Below are positions 50,276 to 64,000 of a DNA stretch of 64,000 nucleotides, one piece after another (position 1 is the stretch's first letter; the number at the start of each line of letters is the position of its first letter). The position numbers and the translations under genes are program-made. The notes beneath the pieces are model-generated. The model did no database searches. It was not told the origin of the DNA and was given only the letters and a program-made list of their open reading frames with translations. Source of the DNA: Tenacibaculum ovolyticum DSM 18103 (GTDB lineage: Bacteria > Bacteroidota > Bacteroidia > Flavobacteriales > Flavobacteriaceae); contig NZ_AUMF01000009.1 of NCBI RefSeq assembly GCF_000430545.1, positions 1 through 64,000 of the forward strand, given 5' to 3'.

Positions 50276-50336
50276 AGTATTGATTATTAGCTTATTATTT
50301 CATATATTTAAGAAGTAACTTAAAATAATAATAATT

Positions 50337-50786
50337 ATGAATAGTAATAAAATAATAATTAGCAATGCTTTATTAATTTTTGGAGGAATCGTAAGTTTTT
50401 TTTTATTAATGAAAATTTTTGGCCTCGATAATATTTCTGAGCTAAGATTTTTAAATTTTGCCTTTATTCTTTGGGGAATAAATAACGCCATACGAACAAA
50501 TATGAATAAAAATGAAGCATCCTTGTACATTCATAACTTTTCTGTAGGAATAGGAACTTCTGTAATTGCAGTCGGATTATCGGTTATTGGCCTGATTATC
50601 TATGTGAATTTTATAGACCCTAACTTTATGTCTATATTAGAAAACTCTGCCTTTTGGGGGCAAAATTTGAGTTTAAGTTTAGTTGTTTTTGCATTAGCTA
50701 TTGAAGGAATAGCTTCTTCAGTAATTTGTTCATTTATATTAATGCAGTATTATAAAAACTATAAAAAGGCAATTACAATCGCATAA
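50337..50786 (+). CDS. Membrane protein of unknown function
   Basis: A 149-residue protein with four membrane segments (about 7-27, 38-52, 67-90 and 112-140). No recognised motif. It follows the dehydrogenase gene by 61 bp on the same strand and ends at a terminator. Confidence 0.65.
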   Translation: MNSNKIIISNALLIFGGIVSFFLLMKIFGLDNISELRFLNFAFILWGINNAIRTNMNKNEASLYIHNFSVGIGTSVIAVGLSVIGLIIYVNFIDPNFMSILENSAFWGQNLSLSLVVFALAIEGIASSVICSFILMQYYKNYKKAITIA

Positions 50787-50819
50787 TTTAAACTAAAAAA
50801 GGTATTATAATTACTCCAT

Positions 50820-50857
50820 AAAAAAGCCTCAGATTAATAATCTGAGGCTTTTTTTTA
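50820..50857. terminator. Bidirectional terminator before the OmpA-like gene
   Basis: AGCCTCAGATT pairs with AATCTGAGGCT around AATA-type loop, A-runs before and T-runs after, between convergent genes. Confidence 0.85.
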
Positions 50858-50876
50858 TTATTCTTTGTTTTATATA

Positions 50877-51740
50877 CTATGGCTGAATCACTTGCTCTTC
50901 AGCTAATAATCCAAAAAACTTATCTAAATTAGGTAGAATAACGATTTTTGTTCTTCTATTTCTAGCTCTATTAGCCCAAGTTTTATTGTCAACTAATGGT
51001 AAAGAAGATCCTCTACCTGATGCTATTAATCTACTTGCATCAATACCATATCTTTTTTCTAAAATTCTAACTATAGATGTAGCTCTTTTTACACTTAAAT
51101 CCCAGTTATCTTGTATTACTTCATTGTGAATTTTTCTAGAATCAGTATGTCCTTCAATCATTACATCCATACTTGGTTCAGATTTAATGATATCTGCTAA
51201 CTTTTTAAGTGTTTTGTATGCCTTACTGTTTACATTATAACTAGCTGTTTTAAATAGCATTTTATCTGAAATAGATATCATTACAACAGTCTTGTCAATA
51301 TTTACATTAATATCATCTGAGTTTTCTAAATCAGCAACGTTTATTGACTTTTTTAACTTATAAGAAACTGCAATATTCATAGAGTCTTTTAAAGTCTTAG
51401 CTTTTGCTAATTCAGCTGGATCTACGTTTGCTAAAGTTTTACGCATTTTTACTTTCATAGAGTTAGATATCACTGCCCCTTCGACCATATCTAATTTTAC
51501 ATCATTCTCTTTTTGTAAACCTGAATTGATTCCTTTTAAAGAATTTATTTTTTGATTATAATTATCAACTCTTTTTTCGATTTTCGAAAACTTAGCTTCC
51601 AATTGTTCTTTTTCTAAAGCTGTTCTTTGAAGCGCTCCTTTTGTAGATTTATACTGTTGTTCTAATTGAACATACTTTTTTTTAGAGACACAAGAAGTTG
51701 CTAATACTACAACTAATAATAGAAGGAAATTTTTTTTCAT
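50877..51740 (-). CDS. OmpA-family lipoprotein
   Basis: A 287-residue predicted lipoprotein (LLVVVLATSCVSKK) with a coiled coil (about 25-85) and a C-terminal OmpA-like peptidoglycan-binding domain (about 150-275) recognised by VMIEGHTDSRKIH, NWDLSVKRATSIVRIL, IASGRGSSLPLVDN and NRARNRRTKIVI, including the conserved Asp and Arg that bind meso-diaminopimelate. It tethers the outer membrane to the wall. Minus strand; upstream of ctlX with a 66-bp gap. Confidence 0.92.
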   Translation of the reverse strand: MKKNFLLLLVVVLATSCVSKKKYVQLEQQYKSTKGALQRTALEKEQLEAKFSKIEKRVDNYNQKINSLKGINSGLQKENDVKLDMVEGAVISNSMKVKMRKTLANVDPAELAKAKTLKDSMNIAVSYKLKKSINVADLENSDDINVNIDKTVVMISISDKMLFKTASYNVNSKAYKTLKKLADIIKSEPSMDVMIEGHTDSRKIHNEVIQDNWDLSVKRATSIVRILEKRYGIDASRLIASGRGSSLPLVDNKTWANRARNRRTKIVILPNLDKFFGLLAEEQVIQP

Positions 51741-51806
51741 TACTGTTAATTTAATTTATTTGTAATTGTTAAACATATTTTTATTTATTTTAGTATAAAA
51801 AGCTTC

Positions 51807-52742
51807 TTATTTTTTATTTAAAAATATCTCAGCCATCATACAACGTGCACTTCCACCACCACAAGTTTCAATGGTATCTAGTGATGAATGAATAATTTGA
51901 TTGTGTTTTTTTATTTTTTGCAATTGATCTTTTGTTAATGAATTATATGCTGATGAGCTCATTATTAAAAAACGCTGCTCCTCTTCTCCCTTTACTTGTA
52001 GCATATTTCCAGCAAACTGTACTACCTGCTTTTCAGTAATAGCAATAACTTCTTTTTTATCACTTTTTAATTGTTTTATTAATTCTTTCTTCTCTTTTTT
52101 ATCATCTATTGCCTCTAAACAAACGATTGCAAAAGTTTCGGCAATACACATCATTACATTTGTATGATAAATTGCTTCTCTTTTTTCATTTACAGTCTGA
52201 TTCGCAATAAAAATTATTGGAGTATACTCAAAGTCTTCACAAAACTCAATAAATAACTCTTCCGCTGCTCTAGGAGATAAAGCGCAATATGCTTTTCTAT
52301 TTGCACGATCTAAAATCATACTTCCAGTGCCTTCTAAGAAAAAACCTTCCTCCTCTGCTTCAGAGTAATCTATTACATTTTTTATTTCAAAGCCGTTTCC
52401 TTCTAAAGTTTCTAATACATCTTCACGTTTTTCTAAACGTCTATTTTCAGCAAACATCGGATAAATAGCTACATCGCCATTTTCATGAAAAGAAATCCAA
52501 TTATTAGGAAACAATGCATCTGGTGTATCTGGTTCTTTGGTATCATTAACAACAACAACACAAACACCTACCTCTCTTAATTTAATTACAAAAGCATCAA
52601 ATTCTTGCTGTGCTTTTGCATTAATTGTAGTAGGTAATGTGTTTAACAATTCTTGCTGATAATAATTATTAACGGCTGTTTGTTCGTTCATTCTAAAACT
52701 AGCTGGACGAACCATTAAAATGGTATTTGTAGTTTGTTGCAT
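51807..52742 (-). CDS. ctlX: Citrulline utilization hydrolase CtlX (arginine deiminase-like fold)
   Basis: A 311-residue pentein-fold amidinohydrolase. Landmarks are MVRPASFRMNEQTAVNNYYQ, DALFPNNWISFH, EGTGSMILDRANRKAYCALSPRA, YHTNVMMCI with the catalytic histidine, and near the end ETCGGGSARCMMAEIF with the nucleophilic cysteine. CtlX-type proteins use citrulline; the identification rests on these motifs and length. 15 bp from the flavin monooxygenase gene upstream, so the two form an operon. Confidence 0.9.
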   Translation of the reverse strand: MQQTTNTILMVRPASFRMNEQTAVNNYYQQELLNTLPTTINAKAQQEFDAFVIKLREVGVCVVVVNDTKEPDTPDALFPNNWISFHENGDVAIYPMFAENRRLEKREDVLETLEGNGFEIKNVIDYSEAEEEGFFLEGTGSMILDRANRKAYCALSPRAAEELFIEFCEDFEYTPIIFIANQTVNEKREAIYHTNVMMCIAETFAIVCLEAIDDKKEKKELIKQLKSDKKEVIAITEKQVVQFAGNMLQVKGEEEQRFLIMSSSAYNSLTKDQLQKIKKHNQIIHSSLDTIETCGGGSARCMMAEIFLNKK

Positions 52743-52757
52743 CTTATTAGAAATATT

Positions 52758-53801
52758 TTATTTTTTCTTACTTATTATATCTGCTAAATAACTAGCATCT
52801 TTAGACACTCCTCCTAAGGTTGCAGATCCTCTGGTAAACATCCATGGTAAACCAATAAAATACAAACCTTCAATATTACTTACTCCTCTGTAATTTTTAG
52901 GATAACTATTTCCATCTAACTCTAAACCTTCAATCCATTTAAAATCTGGACGGTACCCTGTTGACCAAATAATATTTTTTATAGTAGCTATTTTACTTTT
53001 CTCAAAAGTAATATCATTATTTAATGCATCTTTTGTTCTACCTACACAAATCACATTTTCTCTAGAAAGAATTTCTTTAACATCTGTTCCAATAACAGGC
53101 TGTGAAAAAGAACTGATTTTTTTCCCGATCCAACTATACTTACTATAACTTAAAAAACCGATTATTGTAAACCACCACCATAATGTTTTACCTAAAAACT
53201 GCTGTGGTAGTGATTTTACGGTAGTATCTCCAGAAAAATAAACAGTTCTAGAACTGTCTTTAGATATCTCATTTAAAATTTGATAACCAGAATCACCACC
53301 ACCAACAACTAACGTATCTCCTTCTTTTAACTGCGATACTCTTTTATAGTAATTGCTATGCATTTGAAGTATATCTGCTGATATTTTAGTATGACAAGGA
53401 GGCGTATATGGAATATGAAAAGGTCCTGTAGCAATAATTACATTTTTCGCTTCAATTTTACCATCTTTATAGATTACCTGAAAACCTTTTTCTGTTTTAC
53501 GAACAGATGTTACTAAGGTTTCAAATTGTACAGGAATATTAAATTTCTCAACATATGTTTTAAAATAATTACTAACATCAAATTTAGTAGGATAATGTCC
53601 TTTTGGAGCATCAAATTTTAAACCTGGTAAATGATTATACTCTGTTGGAGTGAATAATTTTAAAGAATCCCATCGATTTAACCAAGAAGCTCCAATTTCC
53701 TTTTCTCCATCAAGAATTAAAAATTCCTTATCCATTTTTTTTAAATGATAAGCCATAGATAATCCCGACTGTGCCCCTCCAATTATTATATAATCTAACA
53801 T
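52758..53801 (-). CDS. Flavin-containing monooxygenase / NAD(P)-FAD oxidoreductase
   Basis: A 347-residue protein with two dinucleotide motifs: IIIGGAQSGLSMAYHL at the N-terminus (FAD) and LVVGGGDSGYQI near 170 (NADP). GASWLNRWDSLKLFTPTEYNHLPG resembles the Baeyer-Villiger/flavin monooxygenase segment, and NIIWSTGYRPDF is the conserved ATG-type motif. Substrate unknown; similar proteins act on small hydrophobic compounds. First gene of a two-gene operon with ctlX, with a promoter at 53826-53833. Confidence 0.88.
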   Translation of the reverse strand: MLDYIIIGGAQSGLSMAYHLKKMDKEFLILDGEKEIGASWLNRWDSLKLFTPTEYNHLPGLKFDAPKGHYPTKFDVSNYFKTYVEKFNIPVQFETLVTSVRKTEKGFQVIYKDGKIEAKNVIIATGPFHIPYTPPCHTKISADILQMHSNYYKRVSQLKEGDTLVVGGGDSGYQILNEISKDSSRTVYFSGDTTVKSLPQQFLGKTLWWWFTIIGFLSYSKYSWIGKKISSFSQPVIGTDVKEILSRENVICVGRTKDALNNDITFEKSKIATIKNIIWSTGYRPDFKWIEGLELDGNSYPKNYRGVSNIEGLYFIGLPWMFTRGSATLGGVSKDASYLADIISKKK

Positions 53802-53825
53802 TCAGTCTCTTTATTATTACTTTTT

Positions 53826-53833
53826 CAAAGGTA
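53826..53833 (-). promoter_or_regulatory. Promoter of the monooxygenase-ctlX operon, -7 element
   Basis: TACCTTTG on the minus strand (TAnnTTTG), 25 bp before the monooxygenase start. Confidence 0.5.
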
Positions 53834-54006
53834 AAACTATAAAATCTTACTTATTAAGTATAATTGTAATATTTTATTATAAAAGCCTCATTTCTTACAA
53901 TACTTTATAAATTAGATACCTATTTATTACTAAATAGTATTTTACTTTTAATAATTTTATTGCTTGAAAAAAAAGGTTAATCTTTTTAATATAAAATCAT
54001 ATAGAA

Positions 54007-54723
54007 ATGGAAAAATTATCTGGTAAAAAAGCTATAATTACAGGAGGTAGTAGAGGTTTAGGTAAAGCTACTGCAATTGCTTTTGCTAAACAAGGTATAG
54101 ATGTTGCTATTACTGGGCGAAACGAAGAACGCTTACTTAGTACTGTTACAGAATTAAAAACATACGGTGTACAAGCTACTTATGCTACTTTTGATGTTAG
54201 TAATTATAATGAAGTAAAAAAAGGAATACATGATATCATAACTACACTTGGTACTGTTGATATCTTAGTCAATAACGCTGGTATTGCTGCTTTTGGTACT
54301 TTTAACGACATGAAAGTAGAAGATTGGACACAGATTATACAAACCAACTTAATGGGAATGTATTACGTTACCAAGGAGGTTTTACCTTATTTAATTGAAA
54401 AAAATGAAGGTGATATTATTAATATTTCTTCTACTGCTGGTTTAAGTGGTAATCCTACTACCTCAGCTTATTCTGCTTCAAAATTTGCTGTAATGGGTAT
54501 GTCTGAATCATTAATGAAAGAGGTTCGTAAAAACAATATTAGAGTTTGTACGCTTACGCCAAGTACTATTGCTTCAGATATGTCTTTAGAATTAGGAATT
54601 ACAGATGGTAATCCTGAAAAAGTATTACAGCCTGATGATTTTGCTGAATTAATTGTAGCAGGTTTAAATTTACCTAGAAGAGCTATGCTTAAAGGTGCCT
54701 CTTTATGGTCTACCAATCCATAA
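54007..54723 (+). CDS. Short-chain dehydrogenase (3-oxoacyl-ACP reductase-like)
   Basis: A 238-residue SDR with TGGSRGLGKATAIAF (cofactor loop), NNAGIAAFG, NISSTAGLSG (catalytic serine) and YSASKFAVMGMSE (Tyr-x3-Lys). Resembles FabG-type reductases, but lacks fab neighbours, so the substrate is open. It is the last plus-strand gene before the retron, and a bidirectional terminator separates the two. Confidence 0.9.
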   Translation: MEKLSGKKAIITGGSRGLGKATAIAFAKQGIDVAITGRNEERLLSTVTELKTYGVQATYATFDVSNYNEVKKGIHDIITTLGTVDILVNNAGIAAFGTFNDMKVEDWTQIIQTNLMGMYYVTKEVLPYLIEKNEGDIINISSTAGLSGNPTTSAYSASKFAVMGMSESLMKEVRKNNIRVCTLTPSTIASDMSLELGITDGNPEKVLQPDDFAELIVAGLNLPRRAMLKGASLWSTNP

Positions 54724-54728
54724 ACATT

Positions 54729-54780
54729 AAAACGATGCGTTTCCCTTTTTTTATTACTAAAAAGGAAACGCATCGTTTTT
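54729..54780. terminator. Bidirectional terminator between the SDR and the retron reverse transcriptase
   Basis: A long stem (AAAACGATGCGTTTCC and its complement) with an AT-rich loop, between convergent genes, 5 bp after the reverse transcriptase stop. It ends the retron transcript. Confidence 0.85.
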
Positions 54781-54785
54781 AATTC

Positions 54786-56291
54786 TTATTTTTTAAAAAA
54801 AGAAATTATCTTTTTAAAGAAGCTAGGTACTTTGTGTTCATTTGCAGCTTCTGTACTATTACTTGCGTATTTTGCTACATGATTTTCTTTATAAGAATGT
54901 GCTTTTAAAATAGCGCTCACTTGACTTTTATACTTAACTCCCTTTATTTTATCTACTTGATAAATATAGTTTGCGTAACCATCAATTTCAGCTAATACAT
55001 TAAGCCCACCATTCCATGTTTTTCCTTGTATTCCTTCTTTTTCTATTTGAAACAATAAAGCTCTAAAACGTTTTAATGATTTCTTATTTATATTCAGTTT
55101 TTCATTAACTACAATACCTGTTACCTCTTGTCTTTCATTACGTTTCATAATTCGTAATTTATCAGGATGCAACTTAAAATTTTCTTCTTTAATAATTTTT
55201 TTAGAATATTTTAATATCGCTGTAATATATTTAAACTGTTCTTGATTCCCCGAAAAAGTAGTATCATCAACATAACGAGAATACGTAAAACCATATTTAG
55301 TAGCCAAACCATCTAATCGGTAATCCATTTTACGACATAAAATATTTGTTATCGCCGGACTACATGGAGATCCTTGTGGTAAAAACCGATCGCCTCTTTG
55401 TGTAAAATAGTTTTCTCCTAATAAAGAAAGATCTAAAATTTTAGATTCGGAACATAATAATGAAAAGATTACTGCTAATTGCTCTGAATATCCTAACGAT
55501 TTAAAAACTCCCTTTATTCTTTTATAAGTTACTGATGGGAAAAAGTTTTGTAAATCTTGATTAATAACTACCGCTTTATTTACATGAATTTCAGCATTAC
55601 TAACAATAGATCGTTCTTTTACACAACCATGCGCCTTTTTGTGAACCGTTACTTTATTTAAAATATTTTCTAAAATAAAATGTTGTGCTCTTTTTAATCG
55701 AGGCATTGGAGCAGAAATTAATCGGTATCCTCCTGATTTCTTTGCTACTTTAAATCGTTTATAATGATGAATCTTTGAATTTTTTCTAGAAAAGGCTAAA
55801 AATCGGAGTTCATTCACCGTTATTTTCATAGCTTCAGCTAACTCTTTTGCTGACTCATAAATTGGTAAATCGTTTTCTTTAAGTCTTGCAACATTCGTTT
55901 CTGTATCATTTAATTGATGAGAATATCCATCACCTATATAAACAATCTCTTCTTTTTTGGTTTGCTGCCACTTTGCTGCTTTTTCCTTACGGATTAACGC
56001 TCTCTTTAACGCAGTCTCTTTTTGTTTTTCTTTTGATAGCTTCTTTCTTTCTTTATGCTTATTTGCTATAAAAGCTTCTGTATCTTCTATAGCCCTCTCT
56101 TTTTTAACAAGTGCTGTTAAATTATTTGAAAGTTCTCTTTCTTCTTTTAAAAATGCGTTTGCTTTTTCAAAATCTACTTCATTATCACCCCAAAAACCTA
56201 ATCGTTTCATTTCTGAAAGAATAAATTCATCTTTAGATGATTCTTTAATTTTATCGTAAATTTCTTGTCTTCTCGTAGCTGAATTATCCAT
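54786..56291 (-). CDS. Retron reverse transcriptase
   Basis: A 501-residue reverse transcriptase. Catalytic residues are D246 (INQDLQNFF) and the YVDD box at 340-343; the substrate-positioning segment is LPQGSPCSP (304-311). Retron-specific marks are present: NAEIH (232-236) in the region matching the retron NAxxH motif, and VTG at 390-392 in the C-terminal region matching the RNA-binding VTG motif. The first 150 residues are an unusual, charged, coiled-coil-like extension that core retron enzymes lack. It lies downstream of the ncRNA (10 bp gap from its a2 end) and is the third protein gene in the retron operon. Retrons make a branched RNA-DNA hybrid (msDNA) that helps guard against phage. 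Confidence 0.92.
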   Translation of the reverse strand: MDNSATRRQEIYDKIKESSKDEFILSEMKRLGFWGDNEVDFEKANAFLKEERELSNNLTALVKKERAIEDTEAFIANKHKERKKLSKEKQKETALKRALIRKEKAAKWQQTKKEEIVYIGDGYSHQLNDTETNVARLKENDLPIYESAKELAEAMKITVNELRFLAFSRKNSKIHHYKRFKVAKKSGGYRLISAPMPRLKRAQHFILENILNKVTVHKKAHGCVKERSIVSNAEIHVNKAVVINQDLQNFFPSVTYKRIKGVFKSLGYSEQLAVIFSLLCSESKILDLSLLGENYFTQRGDRFLPQGSPCSPAITNILCRKMDYRLDGLATKYGFTYSRYVDDTTFSGNQEQFKYITAILKYSKKIIKEENFKLHPDKLRIMKRNERQEVTGIVVNEKLNINKKSLKRFRALLFQIEKEGIQGKTWNGGLNVLAEIDGYANYIYQVDKIKGVKYKSQVSAILKAHSYKENHVAKYASNSTEAANEHKVPSFFKKIISFFKK

Positions 56292-56301
56292 AACAAAAAA
56301 A

Positions 56302-56314
56302 GTAGCAATAAGAT
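56302..56314 (-). repeat. Retron a2 repeat
   Basis: ATCTTATTGCTAC on the minus strand, the 3' partner of a1. Confidence 0.8.
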
Positions 56315-56364
56315 GTATATTTTTTCCCTTCGTACAACTCTAAAGACTGAATTGAACAACTCCA

Positions 56365-56438
56365 GTGAAATTAGCACTATAGCATTATTTCACTTCGAAG
56401 AAGTATAACCGGAAATAGTGCTATAGTGCTAATTTCAC
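56365..56438 (-). other. Putative msd hairpin of the retron
   Basis: Arms 56365-56384 and 56419-56438 are a perfect 20-bp inverted repeat. After one mismatch, 56386-56391 and 56412-56417 add 6 bp (TATTTC/GAAATA), and an inner ACTTC-TTC-GAAGT hairpin sits at the tip. A long, nearly perfect hairpin is the form of msd regions copied to DNA in retrons. Confidence 0.8.
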
Positions 56439-56516
56439 AAGTTAAGTTCGAGTCAGTGACGCGTTCGGTGTCTGTAAGCTAGATTGGCGATACACCAATC
56501 AAATTGCAAGGTTTTT

Positions 56517-56529
56517 ATCTTATTACTAC
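56517..56529 (-). repeat. Retron a1 repeat
   Basis: GTAGTAATAAGAT on the minus strand, the 5' partner of a2; complementary except for one G-U pair. Confidence 0.8.
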
Positions 56530-56544
56530 CAAGGTTTAAATATA

Positions 56545-58176
56545 TTAATTATTTTTATCAAAAGTGATTCTTGTTGCTAAAATATGCTCACAAGGTCCTT
56601 TTGTCATTTTATTCTGATGATAGTAACTGCAAGTACACTTAGCGTCAATGATTTGCAAATCATTATTTATATGTACACTCGTTTTATAATTGCCACTTAC
56701 TATCGCTTCTATCTTTATATTATTGGTATCACCATCTATTTTTAACTCTGAAACAGCTCCTGACTCCATTAATTGGTACGCTGTTTTATCTATTTCATTC
56801 GAAAAACGTAACGATTCTAAATCAATTCCATCTTTCTTTAATTCTCTAATTCTATATACGTTGTTCTTTAAATCGTAGACTACCTTTCCTGCTTGTGTAA
56901 AAGTTTGTAACGATTGCTGTACAACCTTTTTATCTAAAGCCAAATTCTTTGCTAAACTTTCTTCCGTATTAAACCAATCTTTACGCAACGCTAAATAAAT
57001 ACTCTGCATGGTGGTTGCAGGTACTTGCCCTCTTGGAGAAAGCAAATCTAAATTTGTAGTTTGCGTCCAATCATTAGCTGTCCAACCAGACAAGCCTAAT
57101 GTAAAATACATATCGTTTGCCAAATGTGCTATATAAAAAGACGGCATACCACTACCCAATAAATGAACTGTAAACTTATTCGTAATTGGCAATAGTCTTT
57201 CTAGAATGGTTATTCGTCTTCTTCCCCAAACTCTAATTTCATGTGCTTCATTACCTTTATATATAGATTTCAAACATGCAATTTCTATATTCCAAGGCTC
57301 AAAAACAGCTACAATAGGTTGCCCAGGTTTTAATATATATTTTATAGCTCTTGGTCCTTTTTTCTCTTTGTGCCTTTTTAATACAGCTATAAAATTAGCA
57401 ATATCAACAGCATCTAAATCAAATGATACTTTATCACTTGTCATAGCGGTACTTACTTGTAAAAAACCGCGCACCCAACTATCTGGTAAATCAATTTTAA
57501 CCTCTCTATATATATCTTCTCCTGTTGTTTTTACATCAAAACCTTTAGGATCTATTTTAAATTCTGTCTCTTTATAACTACGTATCTTTTGAAACTCATT
57601 ATACAATGTCTTTGAATAATCAATATTTGTAGTACCACATTCAAACTCACTTATGTTGTTAAAAACATCATAACCACAAGATAATTTTCCATAAACAGAT
57701 TCATCTTTACTAAAGCATTCAAAAAATACCTGATCAGGATGTACTGTAATCACAGGATCTAGCACTAACCAAGCTGCATAATCTCTTGTATATAAATACT
57801 TAAAATATTTTCGTTGTGCTTCGTAAAAAGGCTTTGTAACTTCTTCTCTCTTAGATCGCAATTTTTTTAATTGCTCCTGAATATTTTTTACGTCTGTTTT
57901 TACACCAGCTAATGCTGCTGTTGCTTCTGCTACCCAAATATCTTCTTGGCTCTTTAACCAAGCTAAATATTCTGTATTGTCTTTAGGTTTAAAATTAAAA
58001 TCTGCTGTAACAACGCTATGCAAAGTTGAAATAGCTTCTCTAAAAGGAATTTTTTTATCTAAAACTCCTACAAAATAAGTAGGTTCTCTTAATACATCTG
58101 GCGCAAAACTAACCCCTGTAGAAGACATACTGTTATTGACACTACTGCTACCACTATATTTAAAATTAAATTTCAT
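56545..58176 (-). CDS. Winged-helix / SWIM zinc-finger protein of the retron
   Basis: A 543-residue protein. The C-terminus holds a SWIM zinc finger, C514-x-C516-x12-C529-x-H531 (KCTCSYYHQN...PCEHIL). The segment before it (about 405-450: TEESLAKNLALDKKVVQQSLQTFTQAGKVVYD) reads as a winged helix. The N-terminal 400 residues include a helical region with heptad character (about 90-120) and a region of beta strands that I cannot assign. It starts 14 bp after the ARM-repeat gene, so the two are cotranscribed. Proteins named WH-SWIM are listed as accessory proteins of retron type XIII; a role as effector or DNA-binding partner is inferred. Confidence 0.85.
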   Translation of the reverse strand: MKFNFKYSGSSSVNNSMSSTGVSFAPDVLREPTYFVGVLDKKIPFREAISTLHSVVTADFNFKPKDNTEYLAWLKSQEDIWVAEATAALAGVKTDVKNIQEQLKKLRSKREEVTKPFYEAQRKYFKYLYTRDYAAWLVLDPVITVHPDQVFFECFSKDESVYGKLSCGYDVFNNISEFECGTTNIDYSKTLYNEFQKIRSYKETEFKIDPKGFDVKTTGEDIYREVKIDLPDSWVRGFLQVSTAMTSDKVSFDLDAVDIANFIAVLKRHKEKKGPRAIKYILKPGQPIVAVFEPWNIEIACLKSIYKGNEAHEIRVWGRRRITILERLLPITNKFTVHLLGSGMPSFYIAHLANDMYFTLGLSGWTANDWTQTTNLDLLSPRGQVPATTMQSIYLALRKDWFNTEESLAKNLALDKKVVQQSLQTFTQAGKVVYDLKNNVYRIRELKKDGIDLESLRFSNEIDKTAYQLMESGAVSELKIDGDTNNIKIEAIVSGNYKTSVHINNDLQIIDAKCTCSYYHQNKMTKGPCEHILATRITFDKNN

Positions 58177-58190
58177 TCTTCTTCTTAACT

Positions 58191-61100
58191 TTATTTAATT
58201 AATAATGGTATTGCTACATCTGAGTGCTTTTCAGAAATAGTTAATAATATATCTATAATTTTATCTTTATCAGTAACCGTTTTGGTATCTAAAATGGTAT
58301 TTAAAATTCGTACTGTCATTAAAGCTACTTCTTTATGTTTTTCAGATTCTTTTTCTAAAAAGGAATACACTCTGGTTTTTGTAGCTCTGTTTGAGTTTAT
58401 ATAAAACAAGGTCGTTTTAAAGTAATCTTCTAATTTTAAAATTACCGCTACATTATCCGAAGCGTAAGTGTTTAAATAATTGGTTGTAAAAAATTGCATG
58501 CTCTTTGCAGGATGTTCTTGTAAGCTAACAAGTAAAGGCAGTCCTTTTTCTTCTGAAAAATGTTTTACCGCCATACTTCGTCCTAAATGTTGCACTTGCT
58601 CTTTTACGTGATCACATACATATAATAACATTTGTACAGTCCAATTTTTGGCATCTATATGTTCACTAAAATAATCACACCCCCAGTCAATAACATCTTG
58701 CCAATTAGTATTAAAAATAGGCAATGCTTCTTCTAATTCGTAATTTACCCTAGCTACGTTATTTTTAAAGTAAGTTTCTAGTCTTGTTCTTATAGAAAAC
58801 ACATCACTATGAGCTAAACGTATTAAATCTGACATACTTAAGGCACTCATGCTTATGTTACTTTCAAAAATCGGAGTTCCTAGTTTTTGTGCAAATTCAT
58901 ATTTTGACAGCACTAATGTTATTATTCCTTCTTTTGATAACTCTTTTAAATCAGCTCCGTATAATTGTATTAGAGTTTCATAACAATTCTCATGCAAGCC
59001 TTCATAACTTTCAGCTTCTGTTATATATGCTAATAATTGTTTTAATAAACTATCTTTAAACTCGCTATCTAATTTTGTTAATTTATCAACCGTAGGTCGA
59101 ATTGCTTTTCTTACTTCTGAATATTCAGAAAAACAGAAACTAACGATGTCTTCTTTGTTTTTTATTAAATATTTGTCAGGAAAGTGTGCTAAAAGTTCGA
59201 TACCCGCACTTCTTAACACTTCTTCTTCTGACGTTATATATTCTTTATAATTTTCTTTAAATAAATCGTAAGCGGGCGTAGCGTTATGTTTTGCTAAATT
59301 AATTGCGAATAATTTATTTGTTACAGAATTTGAAGCTGCTAATTCCACTATTTTTTTAACAGGGGTATCACTTAATAACTTACCAAATAAAGTATTCCCT
59401 ATTAAATTGCTTACAGCTATTAAAAAGCTAAATGAGTAAGTAGACGCTTCTTTAAATAGTTCTTGCAAATAATCTATTGCTATAATCGTATCATAGGCTA
59501 CACTATTTTTATATACTTCTGTTAAATATTTTATTACCAAAATCTCATCGGTAAGTAGTAACTCTGTAACTAATGAAGTATTTATTAAATAAGATGCTTC
59601 GTATTTTTGTAACCATTTTAAACCTAAGGCAACTGCTTTATCATTTTTAGATGCTAAAAGCGTTATTAAAATAATTTTTTCTGGTTGACTTGTTGCATAT
59701 TTTGCTTCTAACAATGCTGTTACTAACTCTAATACCTTTGGATGTTTATGAGCTAGTAATTTTGAAAATATTTCGTCAGATAGGTTTTCTAAAAAATGAG
59801 CGTTATCTTTTATTATACGTAAACAAAAATCTACTGCAATTGTACTTTTAGCATTTGCTAGTATGTATAATACTTCAGTTGGTTTTTGATTCCAAACACT
59901 AGACAACATTTCTTCTCTTACAACTTCGTTAGTTGTACTTTCTATATAATACCACTTATTCTTTTGCTCTTTAAACCTACTAGAACTACCATACAAAATA
60001 TACATTAAAGCAGAAAATTGATGGTATTTAGGATAACACTTTTTTTCTATATCGTAATTTCTTGTTGCAGGATTATAAACATAATCATGCTCTACACGCT
60101 CAGTTACTTGATCTCCATCATCATCTAAAACACATAGTATATCAGTGGCATATTGAATATAGGCTTCTTGATTTTCAACACTTAAGTTGTATATATTTTT
60201 ATAACTGTTTTTAGTAAAATAATCTTTTGTTTTACCAGAAAAAGCTATTCCTGGGTTTTGTTTTTTCTTTTCTTCAAAAGCATAAACCCATTCTCCTTTT
60301 ACACTTGGGTAATCAGAAGTATAACCTGCTTTACCAATTGCTATTTGTTTAGCTAATAACGCAAAAAATCGAGTATCATTTATTACGCAAGCTGCTCTAT
60401 ATATATAACGTATCGATTTAAATGTATTTACTTTTAAAGGAACTTTTTCTAATAATTTAAATAATTCATCTCTTAAACTATCATTATCATACGCATATAA
60501 GTATGCATAAAATAAGAACATTGGGTTTCCTTTATTATTTCCTACAAACTGTAACGCTAAAGATGTTATTTCTTCTTCCGAAATATGTTTCCTAACCTCA
60601 GCATGTATTATTTGTTTATCCTTAACACTTCCGTATCGTAATATATAAGCACAAGCTACTCTACCTACAATTGTTTTTAAGTTATGATCTTTAAAAACAG
60701 TTAAAATTTCTGTTACGTAATTGGCTTGGTTAAATTCTGCTAGTACATTAATTGTATTGTACTGCTCAAATTCATCTGATGAGTGGATAAATTGAGCTAT
60801 TTGTGGTATTGCTTCTCTAATTTTTAAAACGCCTACCCTCGCAATAATTTTAGATACTTTCCAATTTCTTGTATAGGTACCTTTAATTGATTGATTTAAG
60901 TATTTTAAAATTGTTTCTTTTCTTGCAGTATTTTCGTCTTTATGTAAACTTTCAGTTACTTTAATTGCTTCTTGCAAGATTTCTGAATAGCCTTTCTTTT
61001 CCTTACTTTCTACTAAACTATTAAAAGTTTTTTGGGCTTCTTCATAAGATACAGGAAAAACAGTTTTTGTGCCTTCTCTTAAATTTGCACCTCTTCTACC

Positions 61101-61211
61101 ATACCTAAAGTTTACAACAAATAAATCTTGACTCTCGCATAAATCTACTTCATAAACTTTGTCTGATTTTTCGTCTGAAAAATATAATTTTTTCTGTTTA
61201 ATTAATTTCAA
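58191..61211 (-). CDS. WGR plus HEAT/ARM-repeat protein of the retron
   Basis: A 1006-residue protein. Residues 1-80 are a WGR domain, the DNA-end-binding module of eukaryotic PARPs, seen as KVYEVDLCESQDLFVVNF followed by RYGRRG at 36-41 and the EEAQKTFNSLVESKEKKGY end. The remainder (about 110-1006) is a large array of helical HEAT/ARM-like repeats, e.g. IAQFIHSSDEFEQYNTINVL and VLELVTALLEAKYATS. It has no obvious enzyme motif. First gene of the retron operon, promoter not clearly identified. Large ARM proteins are the second accessory partner of type XIII retrons. Confidence 0.85.
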   Translation of the reverse strand: MKLIKQKKLYFSDEKSDKVYEVDLCESQDLFVVNFRYGRRGANLREGTKTVFPVSYEEAQKTFNSLVESKEKKGYSEILQEAIKVTESLHKDENTARKETILKYLNQSIKGTYTRNWKVSKIIARVGVLKIREAIPQIAQFIHSSDEFEQYNTINVLAEFNQANYVTEILTVFKDHNLKTIVGRVACAYILRYGSVKDKQIIHAEVRKHISEEEITSLALQFVGNNKGNPMFLFYAYLYAYDNDSLRDELFKLLEKVPLKVNTFKSIRYIYRAACVINDTRFFALLAKQIAIGKAGYTSDYPSVKGEWVYAFEEKKKQNPGIAFSGKTKDYFTKNSYKNIYNLSVENQEAYIQYATDILCVLDDDGDQVTERVEHDYVYNPATRNYDIEKKCYPKYHQFSALMYILYGSSSRFKEQKNKWYYIESTTNEVVREEMLSSVWNQKPTEVLYILANAKSTIAVDFCLRIIKDNAHFLENLSDEIFSKLLAHKHPKVLELVTALLEAKYATSQPEKIILITLLASKNDKAVALGLKWLQKYEASYLINTSLVTELLLTDEILVIKYLTEVYKNSVAYDTIIAIDYLQELFKEASTYSFSFLIAVSNLIGNTLFGKLLSDTPVKKIVELAASNSVTNKLFAINLAKHNATPAYDLFKENYKEYITSEEEVLRSAGIELLAHFPDKYLIKNKEDIVSFCFSEYSEVRKAIRPTVDKLTKLDSEFKDSLLKQLLAYITEAESYEGLHENCYETLIQLYGADLKELSKEGIITLVLSKYEFAQKLGTPIFESNISMSALSMSDLIRLAHSDVFSIRTRLETYFKNNVARVNYELEEALPIFNTNWQDVIDWGCDYFSEHIDAKNWTVQMLLYVCDHVKEQVQHLGRSMAVKHFSEEKGLPLLVSLQEHPAKSMQFFTTNYLNTYASDNVAVILKLEDYFKTTLFYINSNRATKTRVYSFLEKESEKHKEVALMTVRILNTILDTKTVTDKDKIIDILLTISEKHSDVAIPLLIK

Positions 61212-61294
61212 GCTTTATCTTTTTTTACACTCTAAATATATAACTTATTTAGAACAAGATAAATTTCTTTATATATCTTTTTACAAAAAAATAA

Positions 61295-61630
61295 TTACAT
61301 CAAACCTCCTTTTAAGTTTACGAAACTCATCCCTAAATTTTCATCTTCTAAAAACACTATAGCTCTTTTACTTCGCATACCTGATTTACAATATACTACG
61401 AGTGGTTTATCTGTTTTCAACTCTTTAAAACGTTGTTGTAATTCTCCTAAAGGAATATGTTCTCCGTTAATATGATTTTGTTCACGTTCCCAATTTTCAC
61501 GTACGTCTAATAAATTATACTTAGCTATATTATTTTGTAAATCATCAAGAGTAATTTCATTAGCTACATTTACTCCAAAAACAAACGGAATGGTAGAGAA
61601 AGCCAATGATATTATTAAAAACAAAACCAT
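61295..61630 (-). CDS. Rhodanese-domain protein with hydrophobic N-terminus, duplicated from moeB
   Basis: A 111-residue protein made of a hydrophobic N-terminal segment (MVLFLIISLAFSTIPFVFGV) and a complete rhodanese domain with active-site loop CKSGMRS (C81). Residues from about 25 to the end differ by only three residues from the C-terminal domain of the moeB-like protein at 62703-63752. The DNA identity is confined to 61305-61568, so the N-terminal segment is new and may be a signal or membrane anchor. It could be a real exported sulfurtransferase or a fresh fragment. Located just upstream of the retron on the same strand. Confidence 0.65.
   Translation of the reverse strand: MVLFLIISLAFSTIPFVFGVNVANEITLDDLQNNIAKYNLLDVRENWEREQNHINGEHIPLGELQQRFKELKTDKPLVVYCKSGMRSKRAIVFLEDENLGMSFVNLKGGLM
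61305..61568 (-). repeat. 264-bp direct repeat, copy A
   Basis: Matches 62710-62973 without gaps; I count 7 mismatches in 264 bases. It covers the rhodanese domain. The repeat copies the 3' end of the moeB-like gene and flanks a transposase remnant and the HEPN-like gene. Confidence 0.85.
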
Positions 61631-61675
61631 AAAATAACCACTTACACCTATTTAGAACAAATAAACAAAGATCTT

Positions 61676-61822
61676 ATGAGTTTTTTAGAGCATTTCAATC
61701 TATACAGAAGACATGGTAGTCTAAGAGGGTAACTTAATGTAAAAACACCTTTTAACGCAGTAGAAGAATGGTATAGATTAGGCCCTTAAACATTTAAAAA
61801 AGACACTAAAAATTTAAAATAA
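61676..61822 (+). pseudogene. Transposase C-terminal remnant
   Basis: In one frame the sequence reads FLEHFNLYRRHGSLRG, stop, LNVKTPFNAVEEWYRLGP, stop, TFKKDTKNLK, stop. FN-YRRHGSLRG and KTPFNAVEEWYRL are the closing motifs of DDE transposases of the IS481/IS3 type. Two internal stops and the missing N-terminal part show it is dead. The rest of 61631-61927 holds no other gene. Confidence 0.75.
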
Positions 61823-61927
61823 ATGTATTAAATTTGAATCAATAAACTCGATAAGTTGTAACGAACAACCTTGTGAAAATTAACACATAAGTTTTTAATA
61901 TTTATTATCTAAAAACAAAATTTATTT

Positions 61928-62620
61928 ATGGAACTTAGAACCGAAATCCTAAATTTTTCACTAAAAATGGAAGAATCTATTAATACTCTTCTTCTTGTTT
62001 ACTTAGGGATAGATGACAAATCTAAAACTAAAAATTTTGGCAATAAAGCAGGTATAAGTTTCAAAAGTAAAATAGATTTACTTTATGATATTAATGTTTT
62101 ATCTCCGGAGGAACGCTTAAATATTGAATTACAAATGAATTTTAGAAATAAGTTTCTACACGATATTAATTGCGATACTTTTGTTGTAACGTTACAACAT
62201 TTTGATAATGGAATAAAGAACAGGTTCTTTAAATTTTTAGACAATAAAGAGGCTTCTCAAGATGAAAATTCTTACAGAAAAGCTTATCAAAAATTATTTG
62301 AGAATAACACTAAGGTTACTGAAAAGAAATTTAAAGAAAAAAGAGGTCAGATTATTAAAAATGGTGAGGTCATTAATTCTCTTATAGGAATAAGTAAACG
62401 CTTATTTATATTATCTAATAAACCAATTCAGGAAGTAATTTTGGTGTTAGACAAAAGTGATTTAGAAAAACCTAAACAAGATGACACTTTAATTAAAATA
62501 AGAAAAATCTGTGAAGACTACCCAAATAAGGTTCATTCAGATTCTGAATTAAAAATATTTAAAGATATAGTAGGAGATGCAATCAATAACAAAATTAATC
62601 TAAAAAATTTATTGAGTTAA
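61928..62620 (+). CDS. Hypothetical protein, possible HEPN-like (Rx4H)
   Basis: A 230-residue soluble protein, probably all-helical. Its first 100 residues follow the shape of MltR/AbiV-like HEPN proteins: helices with MEESINTLLLVYLGI, then a loop, then IELQMNFRNKFLHDI, in which R73-x4-H78 fits the HEPN RNase motif Rx4-6H. The second half (about 120-230) is unassigned and lysine-rich. It lies between the two copies of the direct repeat, on the strand opposite to the retron, in a probable defence island. RNase or abortive-infection function is only inferred from the motif and place. Confidence 0.6.
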   Translation: MELRTEILNFSLKMEESINTLLLVYLGIDDKSKTKNFGNKAGISFKSKIDLLYDINVLSPEERLNIELQMNFRNKFLHDINCDTFVVTLQHFDNGIKNRFFKFLDNKEASQDENSYRKAYQKLFENNTKVTEKKFKEKRGQIIKNGEVINSLIGISKRLFILSNKPIQEVILVLDKSDLEKPKQDDTLIKIRKICEDYPNKVHSDSELKIFKDIVGDAINNKINLKNLLS

Positions 62621-62702
62621 TTTGAAATTTATGCATTCTAATAAAAACGAAAAATACTTTTCTGTCTTGTAATAAGGCCTATAAAGAATGAATAAAAGAA
62701 CT

Positions 62703-63752
62703 TCACATCCCTCCTTTTAAGTTTACGAAACTCATCCCTAAATTTTCGTCTTCTAAAAATGCTATAGCTCTCTTACTTCGCACACCTGATTTACAATATA
62801 CTACGAGTGGTTTATCTGTTTTCAACTCTTTAAAACGTTGTTGTAATTCTCCTAAAGGAATATGTTGTCCGTTAATATGATTTTGTTCACGTTCCCAATT
62901 TTCACGTACGTCTAATAAATTATACTTAGCTATATTATTTTGTAAATCATCAAGAGTAATTTCACTAGCTACAGCTTTTATACCACAGAAAAAGTCGTAA
63001 TCTTTTTCTAATTCAGTGATCTCTATATTTGCTGATTTTTCAAATTTCAATAGCATTTGACGCATACTTAAGGTATCATACATCAATAATTTATTTGCTA
63101 ACACCTCACCTATTTCTAAAATAATTTTAATCGCTTCGTTTGCTTGCAAGCTTCCTATAATTCCTGGTAACACACCTAAAACACCAATTTGTGAACAGTT
63201 TGGTGATTCATCTGATTTTGGTGGTGTTGGGTATAAACATCTGTACGTAGCACTTCCTTTATAATTAAAAACACTTACTTGTCCTTCAAATTTAAAGATG
63301 GCACCATACACCAATGGTTTGTTTGTTATTACCGCAGCATCATTTGTTAAGTATCTTGTGGAAAAATTATCACTTCCATCTACAATTACATCATATTTAT
63401 TGAATAATGAAATGGCATTTTTTCTCGTCAATTTTTCTTTATAAATAGAAAAATCTACAAACGGATTTAATTTTGATAAGCGTTTTGCTGCTGTTGCTGC
63501 TTTTGAAACGCCAATATCATCAATTGTGTATAAAATTTGACGTTGTAAGTTACTTTGATCAACTACATCATCATCTATAATTCCGATGTTTCCAATACCT
63601 GCTGCTGTTAAATATTGCAATACAGGGCAACCCAATCCACCAGCTCCTATAACCAAAACCTTCGCTTGTTTTAATTTTAATTGCCCTTTTTCTCCTATTT
63701 TATCTAAAATAAGATGACGGTTGTATTGTTTTTGTTCTTCGTTTGTTAACAT
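62703..63752 (-). CDS. moeB: MoeB/ThiF-type adenylyltransferase with C-terminal rhodanese domain
   Basis: A 349-residue E1-like enzyme that adenylates the C-terminus of a sulfur carrier protein (MoaD or ThiS type) and, with its rhodanese domain, can supply sulfur. The NAD-like ATP loop is VIGAGGLGCPVLQYL (GAGGLG at 36-41), with D-x-D-x-x-x-x-S-N-L-x-R-Q seen in DVVDQSNLQRQ, the conserved YRCLYP (C172), C186 in ESPNCSQIGVLG, and C256. The usual second CxxC zinc pair is not complete. The rhodanese domain (about 265-349) has the active loop CKSGVRS at C320. No moa or thi genes are visible beside it, so molybdopterin versus thiamine is undecided. Confidence 0.9.
   Translation of the reverse strand: MLTNEEQKQYNRHLILDKIGEKGQLKLKQAKVLVIGAGGLGCPVLQYLTAAGIGNIGIIDDDVVDQSNLQRQILYTIDDIGVSKAATAAKRLSKLNPFVDFSIYKEKLTRKNAISLFNKYDVIVDGSDNFSTRYLTNDAAVITNKPLVYGAIFKFEGQVSVFNYKGSATYRCLYPTPPKSDESPNCSQIGVLGVLPGIIGSLQANEAIKIILEIGEVLANKLLMYDTLSMRQMLLKFEKSANIEITELEKDYDFFCGIKAVASEITLDDLQNNIAKYNLLDVRENWEREQNHINGQHIPLGELQQRFKELKTDKPLVVYCKSGVRSKRAIAFLEDENLGMSFVNLKGGM
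62710..62973 (-). repeat. 264-bp direct repeat, copy B (source copy)
   Basis: The 3' end of the moeB-like gene, 97% identical by my count to 61305-61568. Because it forms part of an intact longer gene, this is likely the parent copy. Confidence 0.85.
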
Positions 63753-63764
63753 CTATAGAATAGT

Positions 63765-64000
63765 TTACTCTTTGTCTTTAAACTTAAATGTTTTTAATGT
63801 TTTCTCTAAAATTTCTTTTTGATTATCATCTACAAAAGACATGATTAGATTAATACTAAAACCATTACGAATGGTTGTAAAATATTTTTGCTTGATATTA
63901 ACCCCTGCATATTCTATACTAAGACTCATTACGTAAAAATTTTGTTTATTAATTTCTACTTCTTCAATTTCATTATCATAACCTTGGTATTCGATTTTCG
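63765..64000 (-). CDS. C-terminal part of an unidentified protein (truncated by the window edge)
   Basis: A minus-strand frame open from the right edge to a stop at 63765-63767, giving at least 77 residues. It reads ...NFYVMSLSIEYAGVNIK, TTIRNGFSINLIMSFVDDN and ends LEKTLKTFKFKDKE. The run of a beta strand, an NGF-SINL motif and a closing lysine-rich helix resembles the end of PsbP-like or DUF1795-like exported proteins, but this is uncertain. 12 bp before moeB, so probably cotranscribed with it. Confidence 0.7.
   Translation of the reverse strand, partial: KIEYQGYDNEIEEVEINKQNFYVMSLSIEYAGVNIKQKYFTTIRNGFSINLIMSFVDDNQKEILEKTLKTFKFKDKE

Follow-up and report, generated by a model that had tools for sequence, protein, structure and literature searches.

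A type XIII retron of Tenacibaculum ovolyticum with a partner protein of predicted sliding-clamp-like fold

Retron types other than type XIII are described as anti-phage systems in passages of PMC12548924. According to passages of that paper and of PMC12887533, the effector of such retrons is kept in check by the reverse transcriptase (RT) together with multicopy single-stranded DNA (msDNA), and a phage methyltransferase or single-stranded DNA-binding protein (SSB) can act as trigger; Retron-Eco8, activated by phage SSB, is a case in which the trigger is a replication protein (passages of PMC12887533). For type XIII, a portion of PMC11953036 lists a PADLOC example in Variovorax, and no account of the mechanism was found in the open-licence papers searched. 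The DNA analysed here was a 64,000-nucleotide stretch of Tenacibaculum ovolyticum DSM 18103 (contig NZ_AUMF01000009.1, positions 1 to 64,000; hereafter the window). At 54786..61211 it carries a three-gene locus, complete as judged from sequence, that is likely an anti-phage defence of the host, acting via a partner with a predicted sliding-clamp-like fold. Window features given below lie on the minus strand unless marked otherwise.

A sequence-only reading of the same DNA had proposed a type XIII-like retron made of three minus-strand open reading frames (ORFs) and a non-coding RNA (ncRNA) gap, in which the msDNA would hold one partner inactive; the predicted clamp fold of the winged-helix/SWIM partner was not part of that reading. 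The ORFs were confirmed at the ends given there (58191-61211, 1006 residues, TTG start; 56545-58176, 543 residues; 54786-56291, 501 residues), as were the spacings of 14 bp between the first two and 253 bp ahead of the RT ORF. WGR, SWIM and RVT_1 domains all scored above Pfam cut-offs. The proposed HEAT/ARM repeats were supported by the PADLOC model HEAT-ARM_XIII (E = 8.4e-18) and by a mostly helical predicted structure. All three type-specific PADLOC models matched (WGR_XIII, 4.8e-292; SWIM_XIII, 1.4e-221; RT_XIII, 4.9e-178), in agreement with the type proposed. RT_XIII scored 590.9 bits and the second-best RT family in PADLOC 289.7, which answers the worry that the RT sits outside the retron clades. 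Only strong RT_XIII scores are type-specific, because at a loose cut-off (E <= 0.001) the model also matched in 3 of 14 control genomes (0 of 14 at strict cut-offs). The type was defined by PADLOC model names and by the retron classification of Mestre et al. 2020, which reportedly gives ARM and winged-helix/SWIM (WH-SWIM) proteins as type XIII partners. The RT, WGR/ARM and WH-SWIM families, the gene order and the ncRNA position in the window were those of type XIII retrons, and no feature was found by which the window would differ from the type. The locus agrees with type XIII in every sequence criterion that could be tested, and it is almost certainly a member.

The WH-SWIM partner, here called clamp-SWIM (543 residues, 56545..58176), was modelled by AlphaFold2 from 45 sequences, with a mean predicted local distance difference test score (pLDDT) of 76.5 and a predicted template modelling score of 0.67. 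In the model a PCNA-like clamp bears a helical insert, and a winged helix and then a SWIM zinc finger come after the clamp. Residues 34-366 (57079..58077) align with whole PCNA chains, and on this model the protein very probably has a two-domain sliding-clamp fold. The complete two-domain fold is common to the prediction and to PCNA and other two-domain clamps. Clamp-SWIM differs from PCNA in sequence (<15% identity) and in adding the insert, winged helix and SWIM finger. The insert (residues 60-138, 57763..57999) lies in clamp domain 1 and, among the proteins compared, was confined to retron members. The SWIM part of the proposed WH-SWIM architecture stood: Pfam SWIM scored above its cut-off in the window protein and matched 45 of 45 family members, and the finger (residues 501-534, 56575..56676) has invariant C514, C516, C529 and H531. 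The winged helix was seen in the predicted structure and otherwise in weak Pfam HTH matches only (HTH_65 in 7 of 45 members at E <= 1, best 0.0038). Conserved basic residues (R46, K197, R199, R236, K267, R268, R319-321 and R327) lie in or just after the clamp helices. No solved relative of clamp-SWIM was found by sequence (best E 0.62). No open-licence account linking retrons with a sliding clamp was found among titles and the openings of abstracts. In a fold search, uncharacterised proteins of Tenacibaculum phages PTm1 and pT24 (BFVD A0A5S9ERV6, A0A1B4XWV7) matched the clamp-SWIM model.

The gap ahead of the RT gene encodes a conserved msr-msd RNA. The proposed ncRNA was supported by a stable fold (-80.3 kcal/mol, z -7.4; none of 200 shuffled sequences reached that stability) and by compensatory changes among relatives. 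When 16 relatives were aligned with no use of structure, 99.3% of 1,247 cells paired and 16 of 78 pairs had changed on both sides (shuffles gave a mean of 5.1, and 0 of 500 reached 16). When the partners were slid by 1-3 columns, pairing fell to 32-44%. In the long msd helix 13 of 35 pairs had changed on both sides and none on one side only. A covariance model trained on those 16 was run at E <= 1 on 80 sources (locus L002 not among them) and gave 64 matches. Four were in the two training sources, since the window and L003 each gave a sense and an antisense match; the remaining 60 were in 53 of 78 other loci. No match was obtained in 25 of the 78, including L073-L081 and several contigs ending just before the RT. 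A wider alignment was made from 46 chosen sources, with 59 matches less 6 antisense partial hairpin matches giving 53 sense rows. In these rows 3,656 of 3,948 cells paired and 71 of 78 pairs had a change on both sides, although this alignment, having been fitted to the model, favours it. Motifs conserved with varying strength were CUUGCA, a GGUG..UCGCC stem-loop, UCACUG, a CGGU tip, GAGUUGA, CAGUCC and UACGAAGG. Rfam families gave 12 matches in 50,000-64,000, none at gathering score, and those to mir-515, mir-96 and leader were set aside as sub-threshold hairpin matches.

The predicted ncRNA runs from a1 to a2 (56302..56530) and is supported by covariation and by covariance-model matches in other phyla. 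The a1 repeat GGTAGTAATAAGAT (56517..56530) forms 14 pairs with the a2 repeat ATCTTATTGCTAC (56302..56314, just ahead of the RT gene), with 100% of cells paired in 16 sequences. Ec86 (Retron-Eco1) has an a1/a2, branch G and msd layout like that predicted here. By this analogy the G of the conserved CCTTGCA (56505..56511; G at 56507) is taken to be the branching guanosine; CUUGCA is conserved across phyla at the position expected for it after a1, and the 2'-5' link is invisible in sequence. The msr stem-loop GATTGGTGTATCGCCAATC (56482..56500) is followed by the msd hairpin (56365..56438), with 27-nt arms (56412-56438 and 56365-56391) and a conserved tip (56392-56411). Reverse transcription presumably starts at the C before GAAGG, again by analogy with Ec86, and the DNA would begin GTACAAC. 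The predicted template of an RT-DNA of approximately 109 nt, with the predicted 5' end GTACAACTC, spans 56332..56440; its far end was set at the msd base by assumption.

RNA helices tolerate G-U pairs, and a DNA hairpin tolerates G-T less well. For the G-U count the msd stem was defined as 21 pairs (columns 218-248 of the 53-row alignment). Among standard pairs, G-U accounted for 6 of 1,054 in the msd stem, 44 of 623 in a1/a2 and 60 of 398 in the msr stem-loop. The a1/a2 helix is the fairer yardstick because the msr share includes one mostly fixed U-G pair. The per-sequence mean was 0.068 in a1/a2 and 0.006 in the msd stem (Wilcoxon p 2.5e-6, 52 sequences), a p-value that overstates the evidence because the sequences are related. 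The msd stem may be selected as a DNA duplex, which would point to reverse transcription. A rival reading of the scarcity is quasi-palindrome correction, in which one arm is rewritten by mutation with the other as template. G-U scarcity in an msd stem could serve as a cheap signature for a stem selected as DNA, applicable to other retron types. Upper msd stems often have CTA(G/T)-like cores, e.g. ACTAGT and ACTATAG.

The window has one ncRNA copy. Two copies per locus were found in other species (L006, L008, L013, L022, L028, L038 and L040), with a spacing of approximately 1.2 kb in L008 and less in the other six. The two copies agreed at 460/533 positions of the msr core, 148/160 of the tip and 232/258 of the 3' core, but at 207/365 of the msd stem and 58/154 of a1/a2. 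Among 182 stem pairs compared between copies, both sides had changed in 69, where pairing was preserved, and a single side in 6. Judged by these alignments, the frame of the double ncRNAs is kept and the stem re-coded, a hint that the stem sequence itself carries specificity.

The RT (501 residues, 54786..56291; Pfam RVT_1) has its catalytic motif YVDD at residues 340-343 (55263..55274); of 77 RTs (window included), 62 have YADD and 15 have YVDD. The retron RT hallmark motifs are NAxxH and VTG. NAxxH was present in 76 of the 77 and the pattern [VT]TG in all, and N232, A233, H236, T391 and G392 were invariant in 25 relatives. The RT matched 14 solved-structure sequences, all of them retron RTs by name or entry, with the Ec86 RT best (4.9e-38). 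The Ec86 alignment begins only at residue 133 of the window RT, so the N-terminal extension (approximately residues 1-125, 55917..56291), with its conserved LGFW and invariant columns in 25 relatives, is not common to the two.

Extension and insert were compared across 77 loci (ORFs of L050, L058 and L076 truncated; L177 and L181 omitted as near-duplicates). The insert position holds 79-83 residues in most retron members and 8-11 in five non-retron paralogues. In L077, L080 and L081 the insert has 47 residues and the RT extension 58-59, against 90-120 for the extension elsewhere. Because both shrink together in these loci, the two are inferred to touch each other.

The third component, WGR-HEAT (1006 residues, 58191..61211), was predicted as a WGR domain followed by a long helical-repeat solenoid (PADLOC WGR_XIII, Pfam and AlphaFold2). 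WGR domains bind DNA ends in PARPs. The domain occupies approximately residues 1-78 (60978..61211; Pfam WGR 11-78, 28.7 bits, cut-off 22), and the AlphaFold2 model (pLDDT 87.9) continues with approximately 60 helices. Among 50 of 759 Foldseek matches to this model, most were HEAT/ARM-type repeat proteins (e.g. CAND1, Scc2 and importins) with low TM-scores. No solved relative was found by sequence (best E 0.0084).

The following course of events is proposed. The RT would copy the msd into an RNA-linked DNA hairpin of approximately 109 nt, and its helical N-terminus would dock on the helical insert of clamp-SWIM. RT, msDNA, clamp-SWIM and the WGR-HEAT scaffold would thereby form an idle complex. 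The last two steps are the least certain: phage replication factors or DNA modification might disturb the msDNA duplex and free the clamp-SWIM/WGR-HEAT pair, and the freed pair might engage DNA ends or forks and jam replication, so that the phage is blocked or the cell killed. The predicted clamp fold suggests DNA replication as the target, and a replication-jamming effector is proposed because the clamp-like partner is found with a WGR scaffold (the domain binds DNA ends in PARPs) and a DNA-duplex msd. If the model is right, the clamp-like partner likely acts against phages by hindering the copying of their DNA. The mechanism as a whole, a replication-jamming effector released or re-shaped upon msDNA disturbance, is put at somewhat under an even chance at best. 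The RT-msDNA-effector logic would be common with Retron-Eco8. The Eco8 effector is an OLD nuclease, whereas no nuclease domain was recognised in the window partners; that of Ec86 is nucleoside deoxyribosyltransferase-like (passages of PMC12887533).

In its most specific form, which is given a probability of roughly 0.3, the reading is that clamp-SWIM is a sliding-clamp mimic controlled by the msDNA hairpin. The phage replisome would disturb the msDNA, and the mimic with WGR-HEAT would then seize polymerases or join the phage clamp and shut replication down; the same probability covers the msd stem as a re-codable DNA duplex, kept by some loci in two copies with different stems. If this is true, Tenacibaculum phages would be fitting targets, since proteins of PTm1 and pT24 match the same fold. 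The clamp fold turns the type XIII mechanism into direct questions, namely binding to DNA, to polymerases, to the host or phage clamp and to the RT extension. Within the open-licence papers searched, three properties of type XIII seem to be new: the clamp fold, the G-U signature and the double ncRNAs with re-coded stems.

Several results weigh against the proposed clamp-based mechanism. The clamp fold comes from one AlphaFold2 model, in which the insert (pLDDT 41-81, blocks of ten) and the conserved stretch 366-381 are poorly modelled. A profile of the 45 members found no clamp among solved-structure (PDB) sequences at E <= 10, and no clamp family was among the 25 listed of 56 Pfam families for those members; clamp-SWIM is called clamp-like, not a clamp, because it has no recognisable clamp sequence. 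No toxic enzyme domain was recognised in WGR-HEAT or clamp-SWIM. Conserved columns are acidic (28) no less often than basic (24), and acidic E47, E194, D232, D258 and E326 lie in some of the same helices, so the model shows no clear DNA-facing charge. In L073, L074, L075, L078 and L079 the RT extension is 110-120 residues with the insert unchanged (79-82), and a single event may account for the joint shrinkage in L077, L080 and L081. As regards the DNA stem, the helix at columns 190-195 is also free of G-U (0/309), the stem top and tip have 11/474, and foot-of-hairpin pairs that were not counted as stem include U-G in 40 of 52 rows. The acidic columns, the longer extensions and the other G-U-free helices decide between none of the explanations considered here.

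The alternative that survives best is that the clamp-like protein serves as a processivity or assembly factor for RT and msDNA, with WGR-HEAT as the effector. Sliding clamps are polymerase processivity factors, and the co-shrinking extension and insert suggest RT binding. Mean column identity is 55% in clamp-SWIM (45 members) against 29% in WGR-HEAT (44 members), which suits a core part. Other retron RTs, however, make msDNA without a clamp partner, and SWIM and helical-protein pairs exist for which no RT was found (L191, L192, L193, L194 and L196; L198 and L199). In Flavobacterium, SWIM proteins are paired with WGR/DUF6493 proteins, with no RT match in the 20-kb regions scanned. Four of five plasmid matches were examined (H1, H2, H3 and H5). 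On Asticcacaulis and Diaphorobacter plasmids the SWIM gene lies beside DUF6493 proteins, and on a Streptomyces plasmid the neighbour matches DUF7824. No RT was annotated within approximately 15 kb on those plasmids, in a gene table that is incomplete. The modules of Flavobacterium, Asticcacaulis and Diaphorobacter resemble the window in having a homologous SWIM protein beside a long helical-repeat protein, with WGR in Flavobacterium; they differ in that no RT was found in the regions examined and in having 8-11 residues at the retron insert position. Such pairs are possible sources of the type XIII partners, by capture from an RT-free module. Taken together, the processivity-factor explanation is judged rather unlikely.

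Improbable, to a higher degree, is action at the membrane, in which the RT tail would tether the complex and the partners would kill by disturbing the membrane or membrane-attached replication. By simple rules, the C-termini of 77 RTs were scored as transmembrane-like (7), aromatic or amphipathic (30), other tails (21) or no tail (19). The window RT ends in SFFKKIISFFKK; L009, L010, L011, L021, L031, L065 and L070 are examples of RTs with transmembrane-like or aromatic/amphipathic tails, the latter having motifs such as PWWKFW and SFFKKIISFFKK. Additional FFKK-like or W-rich ends occur among the 21 other tails, and L073, L074, L075 and L078 have a similar motif at the RT N-terminus. A tether is harder to reconcile with the 19 tail-less RTs (yet L180, one of these, ends FNKINSLFKR), and neither partner has a membrane domain in Pfam. 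The possibility that the RT C-terminus is a clamp-docking peptide was ranked below a membrane tether because 7 of the 77 tails look transmembrane.

It is also quite improbable that the locus is a DNA-repair or stress module without an anti-phage role, with msDNA as a regulatory ligand. The binding of DNA ends by WGR in PARPs would fit such a module, as would the RT-free SWIM and helical-protein pairs, which adjoin ordinary genes. Against it stand the anti-phage role of other retron types (passages of PMC12548924), a patchy distribution and an island with an empty site. An RT match (E <= 1e-100) was found in 8 of 146 sampled genomes of the genus and 8 of 397 of the family, with the window's own genome counted. 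Full-length SWIM_XIII (E < 1e-150) and RT_XIII (E < 1e-100) occurred in the same 6 of 345 phylum genomes; a shorter SWIM paralogue (E approximately 1e-60) was present in 5 further genomes and in 1 of the 6. For the site, the surroundings of the ThiF gene were compared in six retron-free regions from congeners. In L206 (11439-13645) a monooxygenase homologue is directly followed by a ThiF-rhodanese homologue. The window counterparts, a flavin monooxygenase (52758-53801) and a ThiF-rhodanese gene (62703-63752), are separated by a short-chain dehydrogenase/reductase gene, the retron and two more ORFs. L202 has other left-hand neighbours in common with the window and a small ORF where the monooxygenase would be; L203, L204, L205 and L207 showed no such synteny with the window flanks. 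The retron adjoins the same ThiF gene in L178, L179, L180, L182 and L183, and not in L181. The empty site of L206 and the ThiF-side neighbours mark the block as an accessory island, the site of which is empty in at least one congener.

The clamp fold could also be an artefact of modelling, with the WH-SWIM protein a DNA-binding regulator. The single model and the lack of a sequence match to clamps would fit this reading, which is rated very improbable.

The best 80 of at least 540 confirmed RT relatives, kept from other species, belonged to Bacteroidota, Cyanobacteria, Pseudomonadota, Planctomycetota, Myxococcota, Verrucomicrobiota and others. The closest named relatives of both RT and SWIM protein were from Tenacibaculum. 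Both partner genes were present in the fetched DNA of 60 of the 80. Where at least 6.5 kb upstream of the RT was available, both were found in 52 of 63 and one or both were missing in 11: L007, L016, L026, L035, L051, L063, L066 and L071 were without both, and L076, L077 and L081 were without WGR by the WGR_XIII model. The usual gene order was WGR-SWIM-ncRNA-RT, with RT-WGR-SWIM in L023, L030, L043, L057, L068 and L069 and a mixed order in L008. A viral origin was considered and rejected: the closest RTs in viral contigs were 27-38% identical (80 loci kept of 115 relatives) and a search of 50,697 phage records with the SWIM protein gave nothing at E <= 1e-5, so a phage-borne member was not found.

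A 264-bp direct repeat (97%; 61305-61568 and 62710-62973) beside the retron duplicates the rhodanese end of the ThiF gene, and a 230-residue ORF with no Pfam match lies between its copies (61928-62620, plus strand). Among the relatives, L073-L081 form a divergent branch with an RT N-terminus without LGFW, a shortened or absent WGR-model match and no ncRNA-model match. L179 has its WGR gene broken into two ORFs. L007 (7098-8654) has a WGR-beta-propeller protein ahead of a type XIII-like RT; no SWIM, WGR-HEAT or ncRNA match was found there, and this is possibly another partner set. The RT ORF of L060 (983-2389) starts with a SWIM-protein-like N-terminus and looks like an in-frame fusion after deletion. 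In cyanobacterial loci an RNase III gene (RNase III and dsrm domains) is the next ORF upstream of the type XIII RT (L012, 8250-8963; L041, 8250-8963; L035, 8139-8825; L051, 7939-8640).

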